From Mesorhizobium sp. LMG 17147 (GTDB lineage Bacteria; Pseudomonadota; Alphaproteobacteria; Rhizobiales; Rhizobiaceae): a stretch of 64,000 bases of DNA. A model generated the notes under the pieces. It did no database searches, was not told where the DNA came from, and saw nothing but the letters and a program-made list of their open reading frames with translations. The first letter of the stretch is position 1; every line of letters begins with the position of its first letter. The translations under genes and the position numbers were made by a program. Shown here in pieces: positions 856 through 51,481 of this stretch. The stretch covers positions 434,001 to 498,000 of the forward strand of contig NZ_JANCTC010000001.1 in assembly GCF_024297145.1 (NCBI RefSeq), read 5' to 3'.

Positions 856-865
856 GCGCGTGTCC

Positions 866-890
866 CCGAAAAGTGGAATGCGGTTTTCGG
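866..890. repeat. Small palindromic intergenic element between nirB and nirD
   Basis: CCGAAAA (866-872) and TTTTCGG (884-890) form a 7-bp perfect inverted repeat around an 11-nt loop, followed by ACAAGAATACGCGC. The layout resembles the short dispersed palindromes common between genes in Mesorhizobium and relatives; a related element with GCATGA/TCATGC ends lies at 60451-60494. In the mRNA it would form a hairpin between two co-transcribed genes. The family assignment is from memory of the pattern. Confidence 0.55.
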
Positions 891-921
891 ACAAGAATAC
901 GCGCAAAAGAGGAATGGCCAC

Positions 922-1254: not shown

Positions 1255-4116
1255 ATGCAGATCGATGAAGCGCGCGAGGTGAGGACCACCTGCCCCTATT
1301 GTGGGGTGGGTTGCGGCGTGCTGGCGAAGGTCGCCGCGGACGGTGAAATAACCGTTCGTGGCGACCCGGACCACCCGGCGAATTTCGGCCGGCTCTGCTC
1401 CAAAGGCTCGGCGCTGGCCGAGACCACCGATCTCGAAGGCAGGCTGCTTCATCCGGAGATTCACGGTCGCCGCACCGGCTGGGACGAAGCGCTCGACCTT
1501 GTCGCTTCGACCTTCTCGCAAACCATTGCCGAACACGGCCCCAACGCGGTCGCCCTCTACGTCTCCGGCCAGTTGCTGACCGAGGACTATTACGTCGCCA
1601 ACAAGCTAATGAAAGGTTTCATCGGCTCGGCCAATATCGACACCAATTCGCGCCTGTGCATGGCATCGTCCGTCGCCGGCCACCGCCGCGCCTTTGGTTC
1701 GGACACCGTTCCGGGAAATTACGATGATCTGGAACTTGCCGACCTGATCGTGCTGGTCGGCTCCAATCTCGCCTGGTGCCATCCGGTGCTCTACCAGCGC
1801 ATCGCCGCGGCCCGGGAAAAGCGGCCCGAGATGACGGTGGTGCTGATCGACCCACGCCGCACCATGACGTCAGACATCGCCGACATGCATCTGGCGATCG
1901 CGCCCGATGGCGACGTCGCTTTGTTCACCGGCCTGCTCGCCTATCTCGGCCAGCACAACGCGTTGGACCGCACCTATATCACGGCGCACACGACTGGCTT
2001 CGGGCAAGCGCTCTTCGCCGCCTCGGCGCTCGACCTGGCCGGCATCGCCGCAGCCACCGGCCTTGGCGAGGATGAACTGGCCCGCTTCTACAGTCTGTTT
2101 GCCGCGACGGCGAAGACGGTGACCGTCTACAGCCAGGGCGTGAACCAGTCGTCTTCGGGCACCGACAAGGTCAACGCCATCATCAACTGCCATCTAGCCA
2201 CCGGCCGCATCGGCAAGCCCGGCGCCGGGCCGTTCTCGGTGACCGGCCAGCCCAACGCCATGGGCGGCCGTGAGGTCGGCGGCATGGCCAACATGCTGGC
2301 CGCCCACATGGAGATCGAAAATCCCGAGCACCGGAACCGCGTGCAGCGCTTCTGGAACGCGCCAGCCGTCGCCGAAAAACCCGGCCTGAAAGCGGTCGAG
2401 ATGTTCGAGGCGGTGGCCGACGGACGCATCAAGGCGCTGTGGATCATGGCGACCAACCCCGTCGATTCGATGCCGGATGCCGATGCCGTCGAAGCGGCGA
2501 TCAAGGCCTGCCCGTTTGTCGTGGTGTCGGACGTGCTGGGCGAGACCGACACGGTCCGCCACGCCCATGTCCGGCTGCCGGCGGCGGCATGGGGCGAGAA
2601 GGACGGCACCGTCACCAATTCGGAACGCCGCATCTCGCGCCAGCGCGCCTTTTTGGCCACGCCCGGCGAGGCAAGACCCGACTGGTGGATCATCGCCGAA
2701 GTGGCCAAGCGGATGGCTTTTGGCGAGGCGTTTTCGCATGTGTCGCCGGCCGACATCTTCGCCGAGCATGCCGCGTTGTCGGGCTTCGAGAATGACGGCG
2801 ACCGCGATTTCGACATCGGCGCGTATGGCGATATCGGTGCCGAGATCTACGAGGAGTTGGCGCCATTCCAATGGCCAGCGCCGAGCCAAGCCACCCCCCT
2901 CTGGCCTGCCGGCCATCTCCCCCGCAAGGGGGGAGATCGGCTATCATCACGGCCTTCGCTAATCTCCAATGCCGCAAGGGGAGAGCCGGCGCCAAAGCTG
3001 CCAATCTCCCCCCTTGCGGGGGAGATGGCCGGCAGGCCAGAGGGGGGTGCTCAGGCTGAAAGTGAAAAAGACTTGGGGGTTCAGGCAAGACGAGCCTCAC
3101 TTACCACCCGCTTCTTCGCCAACGGCAATTTCTACACGCCCGACCGCAAGGCGCGCTTCATTACCATCCGCCCAGCCGCACAAACCCGCACCAGCCCGGA
3201 CTACCCGCTGGTGCTCAACACCGGGCGCGTGCGCGACCATTGGCACACCATGACGCGGACCGGCAGGAGCCCGCGCTTGTCGCAGCACATGGCCGAACCG
3301 TTCGTCGAAATCCACCCGTCCGATGCGCAGCACTTCGGCATCGGCGATGCCGAGATCGTACGCGTCTCGACTGCCCATGGCGAGGTGCTGGTCCGCGCCC
3401 TGGTGACGGTGCGTCAACGCCAAGGCTCTGTATTCGTACCGATGCACTGGACCGATCAGTTCTCCGCCCGCGCGCGCGTCGATGCATTGGTCGCGCCGAC
3501 GACCGATGCGATTTCAGGCCAACCGGCCTCGAAGAATGTTGCTGCCCGCATCGAGCGGTTCGCCGCCACAGCCTTCGGCTTCGCCGTGCTCGCCGAACGG
3601 CCCGCATCGATCGACGCCGACTACTGGAGCCTCGCCCGCAGCCCCGCCGGCTGGCGGCTTGAAATTGCGCTGCAGGACAGCCGCGACTGGACCGGGTTGG
3701 CCGCCGCGCTGTTAGGCATGGAAGGCGAGACGCTCGCCTATCACGACATCGCCGGCGGGCACCATCGCTTCGCCCGTTTCGCAGGCAATCGGCTGGTCGG
3801 CGCGCTCTATCTTGCGCCTACGCCGGTAGCGGTGTCGCGCGGCTGGGCGGTCGAACAACTTGGTGCTGAACATGCCGATCGGCAGGCGCGACTGGCGATT
3901 GTCGCCGGGCGGCCGGGCGGCAACAGCGTCGACCGCGGTGCCATCGTCTGCGCCTGTTTCGGGGTCGGTGCCAACCAGATCGCGGAAGCGGTACGCGGCG
4001 GCTGTACCAGCGTCGCGGCAATCGGAGCCGTCCTTCACGCCGGCACCAATTGCGGCTCTTGCCGCGCCGAGATCAAGACCATTATCGACGGGCGGCGTCT
4101 GCAAGCTGCGGAGTGA
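1255..4116 (+). CDS. nasA: Assimilatory nitrate reductase catalytic subunit with in-frame repeat insertion
   Basis: A molybdopterin oxidoreductase of 953 residues that reduces nitrate to nitrite for assimilation. An N-terminal 4Fe-4S motif is formed by C13, C16, C20 and C48 (TCPYCGVGC and GRLCSKG). The large Mo-bisMGD domain follows, then a molydopterin dinucleotide-binding domain from about residue 640, then a C-terminal BFD-like 2Fe-2S domain with CACF near residue 899 and CGSC near 935. This domain order is typical of the NAD(P)H-linked NasA/NarB type. Between about residues 545 and 600 the protein is low-complexity and is encoded by a 46-bp inverted repeat and its loop (2892-3049) that keeps the frame. 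The enzyme may tolerate this as a surface loop; activity is not provable from sequence. Confidence 0.94.
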   Translation: MQIDEAREVRTTCPYCGVGCGVLAKVAADGEITVRGDPDHPANFGRLCSKGSALAETTDLEGRLLHPEIHGRRTGWDEALDLVASTFSQTIAEHGPNAVALYVSGQLLTEDYYVANKLMKGFIGSANIDTNSRLCMASSVAGHRRAFGSDTVPGNYDDLELADLIVLVGSNLAWCHPVLYQRIAAAREKRPEMTVVLIDPRRTMTSDIADMHLAIAPDGDVALFTGLLAYLGQHNALDRTYITAHTTGFGQALFAASALDLAGIAAATGLGEDELARFYSLFAATAKTVTVYSQGVNQSSSGTDKVNAIINCHLATGRIGKPGAGPFSVTGQPNAMGGREVGGMANMLAAHMEIENPEHRNRVQRFWNAPAVAEKPGLKAVEMFEAVADGRIKALWIMATNPVDSMPDADAVEAAIKACPFVVVSDVLGETDTVRHAHVRLPAAAWGEKDGTVTNSERRISRQRAFLATPGEARPDWWIIAEVAKRMAFGEAFSHVSPADIFAEHAALSGFENDGDRDFDIGAYGDIGAEIYEELAPFQWPAPSQATPLWPAGHLPRKGGDRLSSRPSLISNAARGEPAPKLPISPLAGEMAGRPEGGAQAESEKDLGVQARRASLTTRFFANGNFYTPDRKARFITIRPAAQTRTSPDYPLVLNTGRVRDHWHTMTRTGRSPRLSQHMAEPFVEIHPSDAQHFGIGDAEIVRVSTAHGEVLVRALVTVRQRQGSVFVPMHWTDQFSARARVDALVAPTTDAISGQPASKNVAARIERFAATAFGFAVLAERPASIDADYWSLARSPAGWRLEIALQDSRDWTGLAAALLGMEGETLAYHDIAGGHHRFARFAGNRLVGALYLAPTPVAVSRGWAVEQLGAEHADRQARLAIVAGRPGGNSVDRGAIVCACFGVGANQIAEAVRGGCTSVAAIGAVLHAGTNCGSCRAEIKTIIDGRRLQAAE
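2892..3049. repeat. 46-bp perfect inverted repeat inserted in frame in nasA
   Basis: Left arm 2892-2937 and right arm 3004-3049 are exact reverse complements over 46 bp, flanking a 66-bp centre. The inner part of each arm is itself a hairpin (ATCTCCCCCGCAAGGGGGGAGAT). This is the architecture of the mosaic palindromic repeats found between rhizobial genes. Here it lies inside nasA, and its 158 bp plus neighbouring bases contain no stop in the nasA frame. The duplication edges cannot be fixed without a relative lacking the element. Confidence 0.9.
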
Positions 4117-48898: not shown

Positions 48899-51481
48899 AT
48901 GACCACAAAACCCTTGCCGGACCTGCCGGTCTCCGCTGTCTTGCCGGCGCTCGATGAAGCGCTGAGCCGTGGTAACAGCGCCGTGCTGGTGGCGCCGCCC
49001 GGCGCCGGCAAGACGACTTTGGTTCCACTGGCGCTGCTCGACGCTGAATGGCTCGGCGCCGGAAAAATCATTCTGCTCGAGCCTCGCCGCCTCGCCGCCC
49101 GCGCTGCCGCCCGCCGCATGGCCGAATTGCTTGGCCAAGAGCCCGGCGAAACCGTCGGCTATGCCATGCGCATGGAAAACCGCACTTCCGCGAAGACCAG
49201 GATTCTCGTTGTCACCGAAGGCGTGCTGTCACGCATGATCCTCGACGATCCCGAACTGCCCGGTGTCGCGGCGGTGTTGTTCGACGAGTTCCACGAACGC
49301 TCGCTCGACGGCGATTTCGGGCTGGCGCTGGCGCTCGACGTGCAAAGTGCGCTGAGGCCCGACCTCAGATTGCTGGTGATGTCGGCGACGCTCGATGGCG
49401 CGCGCGTCGCAAGATTGCTGTCCGGCGCGCCGGTGATCGAGAGCGCAGGCCGCGCCTTCCCGGTCGACATCCGCTATGACGAGCGGCCGGCCGGCATCGC
49501 CATCGAGGACGCGATGGCCAGGGCGATCCGCTCGGCGCTTGCCGGGGAGGAGGGCAGCGTGCTCGCTTTCCTGCCCGGCCAGCGCGAGATCGAGCGCACC
49601 GCGGAGCGGCTGGCCGGCAAGGTCGGCGCCGACACCGATATCGTGCCGCTCTACGGCATGCTCGACAACAAGACGCAGGACGCGGCGATCAAGCCTGCGC
49701 CGCCCGGCCGCCGCAAGGTGGTGCTCGCGACGTCGATCGCCGAAACCTCCATCACCATCGATGGCGTGCGCGTCGTCATCGATTCCGGCCTGTCGCGGCT
49801 GCCGCGCTATGAGCCGGCGAGCGGCCTGACGCGGCTGGAGACGGTGCGTGCTTCGCGCGCTTCCGCCGACCAGCGCGCCGGCCGTGCCGGGCGCACGCAG
49901 CCCGGCGTCGCCATCCGGTTGTGGCGGGCCGAGCAGACGGCGGCCCTGCCGGCCTTCACGCCGCCGGAAATCCTCGAGGCCGATCTTTCCGGCCTGTTGC
50001 TCGATTGCGCCGCGTTCGGCGTCGCCGATCCGACCAGCCTGTCCTTCCTCGATCCCCCGCCGGCTGCGGCGCTCACCGAGGCGAGGGCGCTGCTGCGTGC
50101 GCTCGATGCGGTCGATGCGGCAGGACGCCTGACGGATGGCGGTGCGGCGATGCGCAGGCTGGCGCTACCGGTGCGGCTCGCCCACATGGTCGCCGAGGCG
50201 GCAAGGACCGGCCAGGCGCTCGAAGCGGCGATGCTCGCCGTGCTATTGACCGAGCGTGGCCTTGGCGGCGAGGGTGCCGGTCTCGAACGGCGGCTGATGC
50301 GCTTTCACGCCGAAAGATCGCAGCGTGCCACCGCTGCCCGGCAACTGGCCGAGAGGTTGGCAAAGCAGGCTTCGTCCTCCCCCTCGAGGGGAGGGTCGGC
50401 GAACGAGCCGAGCGCAGCGAGACGAGGGAGACGGGGCGGGGTCGCCGATGGCGTGCCCGAACCGACCCCGCCCCGATCCGCTACGCGGATCAACCCTCCC
50501 CTCAAGGAGGAGGGCAGCACTGCCGGCTCGCTCCTCATCCATGCCTGGCCGGATCGGGTCGCCAAAGCGCGCGGCGAGCGTGGCCGCTTCGTGCTTGCCA
50601 ACGGCTCGGGCGCCATGCTCGACGCCTCCGATCCGCTGGCCGGCGAGACCTGGCTCGTCGTCGCCGACCTGCAGGGCAAGGCGCAGAACGCCCGCATCAC
50701 CGCGGCGGCAGCCATCGATGAGACCGATATCCGTGCCGCGCTGGCGGAAAGGATCGAGACGCGCCGGGAGGTCAGCTTCGACCGCGACAGGCGCGCGGTG
50801 CGGGTGCGCGAAACGGTTCGCCTCGGGGCCGTCACGTTGTCCGAACGCATGCTGCCGAAGCCGACCGGTGCCGACGCGGATCGCGCCATCCTCGACGCCT
50901 TGCGCGAACACGGCCTGTCCCTGGTGCCGTGGACCAGGGAGGCGGAGACGTTGCGGCAGCGGCTCGGCTGGCTGCATCGCGGCCTCGGCGCGCCATGGCC
51001 CGATGTCTCCGATGCCGCGCTCGTCGAGCGCCTCGACGACTGGCTGCTGCCATTCCTTTCCGGCGCCACAGCCTTTACGGCGATTGATCCTAGCGTGCTT
51101 TCGCAAGGCCTGATGACGCTGGTGCCGCACGAATTGCAGCGCAAGATCGACACATTGGCGCCGACCCATTTCGACGCGCCGTCGGGCAGCCGGCTGCCGA
51201 TCCGCTATGACGGCGAATGGCCGGTGCTGGCGGCGCGCGTGCAGGAGCTGTTCGGCCTCGACCGGCATCCGGCGATCGCCAACGGCACTGTGCCGCTGAC
51301 CCTCGAATTGCTGTCGCCGGCGCACCGGCCGATCCAGACGACGCGCGACCTGCCCGGCTTCTGGCGCGGCTCCTGGGCCGATGTGCGGGCAGAGATGCGT
51401 GGCCGCTATCCCAGGCATGTCTGGCCGGAGAACCCGCTTCTCGCCGCCGCCACCAGCCGCGCGAAGCCGCGCGGTACCTGA
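48899..51481 (+). CDS. hrpB: ATP-dependent RNA helicase HrpB with in-frame repeat insertion
   Basis: An 860-residue DEAH-type helicase. Walker A is APPGAGKTT (residues 32-40), the DEAH-box variant DEFHER is near 128, SAT (MSATLDGARVA) near 163, and motif VI DQRAGRAGRTQPG near 325. The C-terminal HrpB-specific domain ends LPGFWRGSWADVRAEMRGRYPRHVWPENP. Around residues 493-540 the protein is low-complexity (SPSRGG ... PPLKEEGS) and is encoded by a palindromic repeat (50382-50510) without breaking the frame. The role in RNA metabolism is poorly defined in this group. Confidence 0.92.
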   Translation: MTTKPLPDLPVSAVLPALDEALSRGNSAVLVAPPGAGKTTLVPLALLDAEWLGAGKIILLEPRRLAARAAARRMAELLGQEPGETVGYAMRMENRTSAKTRILVVTEGVLSRMILDDPELPGVAAVLFDEFHERSLDGDFGLALALDVQSALRPDLRLLVMSATLDGARVARLLSGAPVIESAGRAFPVDIRYDERPAGIAIEDAMARAIRSALAGEEGSVLAFLPGQREIERTAERLAGKVGADTDIVPLYGMLDNKTQDAAIKPAPPGRRKVVLATSIAETSITIDGVRVVIDSGLSRLPRYEPASGLTRLETVRASRASADQRAGRAGRTQPGVAIRLWRAEQTAALPAFTPPEILEADLSGLLLDCAAFGVADPTSLSFLDPPPAAALTEARALLRALDAVDAAGRLTDGGAAMRRLALPVRLAHMVAEAARTGQALEAAMLAVLLTERGLGGEGAGLERRLMRFHAERSQRATAARQLAERLAKQASSSPSRGGSANEPSAARRGRRGGVADGVPEPTPPRSATRINPPLKEEGSTAGSLLIHAWPDRVAKARGERGRFVLANGSGAMLDASDPLAGETWLVVADLQGKAQNARITAAAAIDETDIRAALAERIETRREVSFDRDRRAVRVRETVRLGAVTLSERMLPKPTGADADRAILDALREHGLSLVPWTREAETLRQRLGWLHRGLGAPWPDVSDAALVERLDDWLLPFLSGATAFTAIDPSVLSQGLMTLVPHELQRKIDTLAPTHFDAPSGSRLPIRYDGEWPVLAARVQELFGLDRHPAIANGTVPLTLELLSPAHRPIQTTRDLPGFWRGSWADVRAEMRGRYPRHVWPENPLLAAATSRAKPRGT
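50382..50510. repeat. Palindromic repeat inserted in frame in hrpB
   Basis: Outer arms GAGGGGAGGGT (50386-50396) and ACCCTCCCCTC (50493-50503) and inner arms CGGGGCGGGGTCG (50432-50444) and CGACCCCGCCCCG (50463-50475) are exact inverse pairs of 11 and 13 bp, nested. A smaller hairpin GATCCG/CGGATC lies at 50475-50491. The element keeps the hrpB frame and is unlike the one in nasA in sequence, but similar in design. Confidence 0.8.

Follow-up and report, generated by a model that had tools for sequence, protein, structure and literature searches.

A dispersed palindromic repeat, probably translated as a tolerated spacer, in the interdomain linker of the nitrate reductase NasA of Mesorhizobium

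The best-known translated palindromic repeats are those of Rickettsia; palindromic repeats also occur in bacteria related to Mesorhizobium, namely RIME (Rhizobium intergenic mosaic elements) and the Bru-RS of Brucella. According to passages of PMC2229807 and PMC10969869 the Rickettsia palindromic elements (RPE) are palindromes of 100–150 bp which are found between genes and also in frame in unrelated genes, where they are translated and tolerated; an excerpt of PMC6649704 states that RPE lose their repeat identity over time. The bacterial MITEs (Correia, ERIC, YPAL, RUP) are described in parts of PMC2229807 as small multicopy elements with inverted repeats and a stem-loop, sometimes with ORFs fused to genes. 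The excerpt of PMC6649704 also reports long inverted repeats in genes of nematomorph mitochondria, gained and lost with their arms kept complementary, and mobile hairpins in yeast mitochondria which are bypassed by ribosomes. A section of a 2024 review regards translated palindromes in other prokaryotes as conceivable (PMC10969869). No comparable case from rhizobia was found in the open-licence literature, most subscription papers lying outside that search.

The window analyzed here, a stretch of 64,000 nucleotides from Mesorhizobium sp. LMG 17147, contains nasA, coding for the catalytic subunit of assimilatory nitrate reductase, at 1255..4116 on the + strand. The gene was assigned from its open frame, its Pfam matches and its named relatives. 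The ORF of 953 codons is intact despite an inverted repeat within it; the matches Molybdop_Fe4S4, Molybdopterin, Molydop_binding and Fer2_BFD are the four expected of NasA, and the closest named proteins are from Mesorhizobium with 96–98% identity. Judged by inverted-repeat pairing, the 5′ arm of the repeat extends over 2892..2941 and the 3′ arm over 3000..3049, both given on the + strand. They are 50 nt each and 98% complementary, and the outer 46 bp (2892–2937 and 3004–3049, row L030) are free of mismatches with a 66-nt loop between them. A sequence-only reading had described a perfect 46-bp inverted repeat with a 66-bp loop in an open nasA frame, and both the pairing and the 953-aa ORF agree with this. 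In the unit of about 158 bp each arm includes two smaller palindromes, and the loop between them, here 2942..2999 (+), is asymmetric and about 58 nt long; comparison of copies shows this loop to be related in sequence to those elsewhere, though it varies strongly.

With a free energy of −144.6 kcal/mol the predicted fold of the element strand lies below every one of 200 dinucleotide shuffles (mean −83.5, z = −14), and a very stable hairpin is predicted in the mRNA at the insert. In Rfam the element gave no score above the gathering cut-off; it had six matches with E values of up to 1, four of them to microRNA hairpins, all of which fell below it and were dismissed as hairpin look-alikes. Promoter and terminator scans gave nothing exceeding shuffles.

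At the protein level the repeat is situated after the Molybdopterin match, which ends at residue 486, and before the dinucleotide-binding match, which starts at residue 652. Alignment with NasA genes devoid of the insert, together with AlphaFold2, shows the linker between FQWP and RFF to be expanded, with 77 residues (542–618; 2878..3108, +) vs. about 9 to 33 in insert-free NasA of the same type. An AlphaFold2 model made with 70 diverse NasA aligned has a mean pLDDT of 87.5 and a pTM of 0.88, and in fold it most closely matches periplasmic nitrate reductases. The only segment with pLDDT below 50 is residues 548–617, i.e., the insert, which by this prediction forms an unstructured loop, the NasA domains on either side being intact. 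This model superseded an earlier one made with 50 close relatives, which was poor (mean pLDDT 47).

The repeat belongs to a dispersed family. It has 90 matches in its own genome, both strands counted, so that the search for the arm proposed in the sequence-only reading does find the repeat elsewhere; the repeat search produced 88 first-look candidates, of which 40 were scored. Used as a DNA query it matched 171 of the 297 genomes and 72 of the 109 genera sampled from the bacterial family, figures for presence and not for copy number, since at most two candidates were scored per genome. The insert peptide matched 35 of 61 genomes, that is 35 of the 37 from the genus and none of the 24 drawn from the order's other families. 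In other genomes the nasA-type element occupies the nirB-nirD gap; of its 23 unique copies there, 17 point one way and 6 the other. The corresponding gap in the window (856–921, upstream of nirD) contains a different short palindrome.

With its short length and terminal inverted repeats the element resembles the MITEs. By-eye comparison of filled and empty nirB-nirD gaps showed no clear target duplication, and a cognate transposase has not been identified. The Y1 (RAYT) transposase domain PF01797, present in 5 of 14 control genomes, had no match in the own genome, and an identity as REP/RAYT (REPIN) was dropped for this reason. RIME and Bru-RS are cited in portions of PMC2873474 and PMC2267715; the family may be one of these, or may be named elsewhere.

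When a database of 5.8 billion proteins was searched with the insert peptide, 44 proteins of about 520–1670 residues were found, of which 41 were NasA, two NDP-forming acyl-CoA synthetases and one a terminase. In the NDP-forming acyl-CoA synthetases P0126 and P0128 the nasA-type peptide lies in frame between domains. Proteins of about 170–540 residues gave 13 matches, three of them weak: five UPF0280-like, two PaaD, one transglycosylase, one nitrite/sulfite reductase-like, one Rdx and three unknown proteins. Gene-call errors may account for some of these shorter matches, above all for terminal extensions. The gene for the NDP-forming acyl-CoA synthetase is present in 142 of 146 genomes of the genus, and the nasA-type element was absent from the 12 of these loci that were read. 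A codon test of moderate sensitivity on 91 copies with flanks (one being the nasA copy of G017) revealed no other clear coding copy; at a stricter cut it found the own nasA copy and missed that of G017 (L076). Long ORFs running across six other copies (L004, L015, L027, L078, L278, L286) were rejected as genes, none having a Pfam match.

The nasA element appears to work like an RPE, to which it is likened by description and not by RPE sequence. Both are many-copy palindromic repeats of similar size with in-frame copies in unrelated genes, here NasA, acyl-CoA synthetases, a terminase and others, some possibly by gene-call error. The host group is another one, however, a single enzyme linker dominates among the large database proteins, and the arms of the nasA-type repeat stay paired. 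The nematomorph palindromes differ in that both of their arms encode conserved protein, whereas the nasA element adds a spacer derived from a dispersed repeat.

A nasA gene was found at E ≤ 1e-200 in 127 of the 146 genomes of the genus, in two types, the own type and a more distant one, which share about 69% identity before the linker and 42% after it. Five genes read of the distant type (L246–L249, L251) have a short, insert-free linker. A tree was made of 102 distinct nasA genes, 79 of them of the own type, with the linker left out of the alignment. Identical-sequence duplicates, three genes whose contig ends at the insert (L200, L207, L250) and one with a run of N (L210) had been removed. 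These four genes come from three assemblies which break inside the nasA insert (G138 with L200 and L250, G136 with L207, G091 with L210), as if the hairpin impedes assembly.

Insert states were set by text rules, two of them by hand. The element is present in 43 of the 79 own-type genes, five of which also hold another repeat; six have remnants, three only another repeat and 27 neither. Position and frame are common to all 43 carriers, and 41 of 42 unique copies have the same orientation; the element counts exclude L202 and L203, whose additional nested repeat was caught by a length filter. On the tree the state of the insert changes at least 22 times by loss, gain or recombination. The element of Xaviernesmea oryzae nasA has the same frame and the same offset of 17 nt from the FQWP codon as in Mesorhizobium, and Mesorhizobium xinjiangense nasA has a footprint at an offset of 20 nt. 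The short linker of many relatives supports the proposal that the element was inserted at a domain boundary of a once shorter gene. Neither of the outcomes named in the sequence-only reading as refuting it was observed: the relatives do not all carry these residues free of a DNA palindrome, and the repeat does occur elsewhere in the genome.

All 41 measured nasA elements (of 42 unique) are stop-free in the frame of the gene and have an arm spacing that keeps the frame. For 54 copies elsewhere the numbers are 35 stop-free and 37 with frame-keeping spacing (Fisher p 4e-6 and 2e-5, respectively, uncorrected for relatedness). One nasA copy and 11 comparison copies without anchor were omitted from these tests, as were 26 copies (24 anchored) chosen by that very frame. 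It should be noted that the comparison set is mixed. The 21 copies from the own genome outside nasA keep spacing in 9 and are stop-free in 9 cases; the 20 nirB-nirD copies, which lie outside any gene, do so in 18 and 17 cases; and the remaining 13, mostly from Xaviernesmea and M. xinjiangense, in 10 and 9. The nirB-nirD copies are nearly as open as the nasA copies, so openness is partly a property of the family in this genus, and the sharp contrast is that between nasA and own-genome copies. The other two forward frames of the nasA copies are open in 25/40 and 13/40, and the reverse frames in 10/40, 5/40 and 6/40. Of the 23 copies of the own genome, one being the nasA copy, about 40–60% are open in any given one of the six frames. 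The nasA of G030 (L040 / L205) has a linker of 212 nt with a net frameshift from altered runs of C and of G within the arms; the frameshift, which may be real or a homopolymer error, lies outside the part of the element measured for spacing.

Arms and loops behave differently. The arms diverge among nasA alleles by 4–5% (5′) and 5–7.5% (3′) and the loops by 33–39%, as found from 741 pairs of 39 alleles placed in bins (several pairs each) by fourfold-site divergence from 13% to 37%. Loop divergence shows no correlation with gene divergence (rho 0.01), which rules out a clock-like history after one insertion, and arm divergence shows a weak one (rho 0.16). In ten allele pairs with similar loops there were 19, 22, and 22 differences at codon positions 1, 2, and 3, and the arm entropy at these positions was 0.12, 0.18, and 0.14; as there is no excess at third positions the loop residues look unconstrained and the arms conserved as nucleotides. 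Of 39 nasA loops, 28 were nearest to the loop of a second nasA copy and 7 to that of a copy elsewhere, while 4 gave a tie, although the non-nasA pool is larger. This gives the nasA locus a history of its own and speaks against pure random loop replacement. L030, L171 and L211 have a common loop though their genes differ by 25–31% at fourfold sites, which points to allelic exchange at nasA. In L192 the loop is inverted.

Loss of the element has left footprints. In L098, L204 and L209 just the outermost bases of both arms remain, fused in frame at GGCC, while L092 is fused nearly at the GGCC site and L234 at GCCGGC, both in frame. These words are present in both arms, as would be expected if the deletions arose by slippage across the hairpin.

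A dispersed palindrome of about 158 bp sits in frame in the interdomain linker of NasA, and we consider it likely to be translated as a disordered spacer which the enzyme would tolerate. The best reading of the element is that of a MITE-like palindrome which is repeatedly deleted or exchanged at nasA. It would be a non-autonomous mobile element; ribosomes would read through the hairpin, and the resulting spacer would, going by the structure prediction, be disordered. Losses would result from slippage across the hairpin, from one short direct repeat of the arms to another, and loops and arms would be renewed via allelic recombination at nasA with occasional exchange with other copies, so that selection at the protein level would see mainly the reading frame. 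The sequence-only reading had called the repeat domesticated. In the sense of put to use this is not supported, given its presence in 43 of the 79 own-type genes and the lack of any recognizable trace in 27, a loop lacking amino-acid constraint and the recurrent in-frame deletions, for which reasons we prefer the word tolerated; the data neither demonstrate nor rule out that the cell benefits from the insert. The conservation of the arms as nucleotides is not by itself explained by simple toleration. Also counting against the reading as a translated spacer are the G030 frameshift, the openness of the nirB-nirD copies and the fact that no clear target duplication and no transposase were found.

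The conserved arms could be taken to mean that the hairpin serves a purpose at nasA and is selected as RNA, to slow ribosomes between domains or to tune the mRNA. Besides its predicted stability, pairing is kept in 97.3% of the cells of a 40-row alignment (L196 and L095 left out), with 25 two-sided changes vs. 7.7 in shuffles (none of 500 as high). The copies of the own genome outside nasA also keep their arms (mean pairing 0.925 vs. 0.961 in nasA), however, so arm pairing belongs to the family as a whole; 6/40 and 7/40 alleles have one or the other of two stem pairs broken, and the genes without a trace and the footprints of repeated loss make us regard this use of the hairpin as very unlikely. 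A ribosome hopping over the hairpin, leaving the insert out of the protein, would be in line with the bypassed hairpins mentioned for yeast mitochondria in the excerpt of PMC6649704, and the one allele frameshifted in its linker (G030) could be accommodated. A bypassed element need be neither stop-free nor frame-keeping, yet every measured copy is both and the deletions read keep the frame too, and we find bypass extremely improbable.

More weight may be given to the NasA linker as a hot spot where the same family was inserted many times independently, with one frame and orientation surviving, although we still find this unlikely. At least two other repeat types are found in the same linker of relatives, the many state changes on the tree fit recurrent entry, the nirB-nirD gap has been filled recurrently and in both orientations, and the Xaviernesmea nasA copy is nearest to a copy from the Xaviernesmea genome itself (0.67 vs. 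0.60). Against it, independent entries should give several frames and orientations, given how many of the six frames are open in own-genome copies; the nasA loops are mostly nearest to each other, and the offset from FQWP is identical in Mesorhizobium and Xaviernesmea. Compared with the tolerated spacer that we favor, a bolder proposal, which we think unlikely, makes the linker a long-lived dock which several repeat families enter, where they are exchanged between strains and from which they exit by in-frame deletion, the arms being renewed as DNA and the hairpin perhaps pacing translation. If this were true, a single enzyme would have its linker continually rewritten by mobile DNA throughout a genus. 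The nasA genes offer a natural series at one site, with alleles that hold the full insert, a partial deletion, a footprint, another repeat or nothing, in an assayable enzyme of free-living, culturable nitrogen-fixing bacteria, and both the cost of a translated hairpin and the retention or loss of a palindrome are directly testable there.

Inserts of other kinds were also seen. The interdomain linkers of the acyl-CoA synthetases L290 and L296, at least two of the 12 loci read, carry other translated repeat-like inserts, and in a MAG from the Alphaproteobacteria (L142) an unrelated, palindrome-like insert occupies the nasA linker. The second repeat type, found in the nasA linker of G169, has matches in all three genomes searched, and positions 50376–50475 of the window match it.
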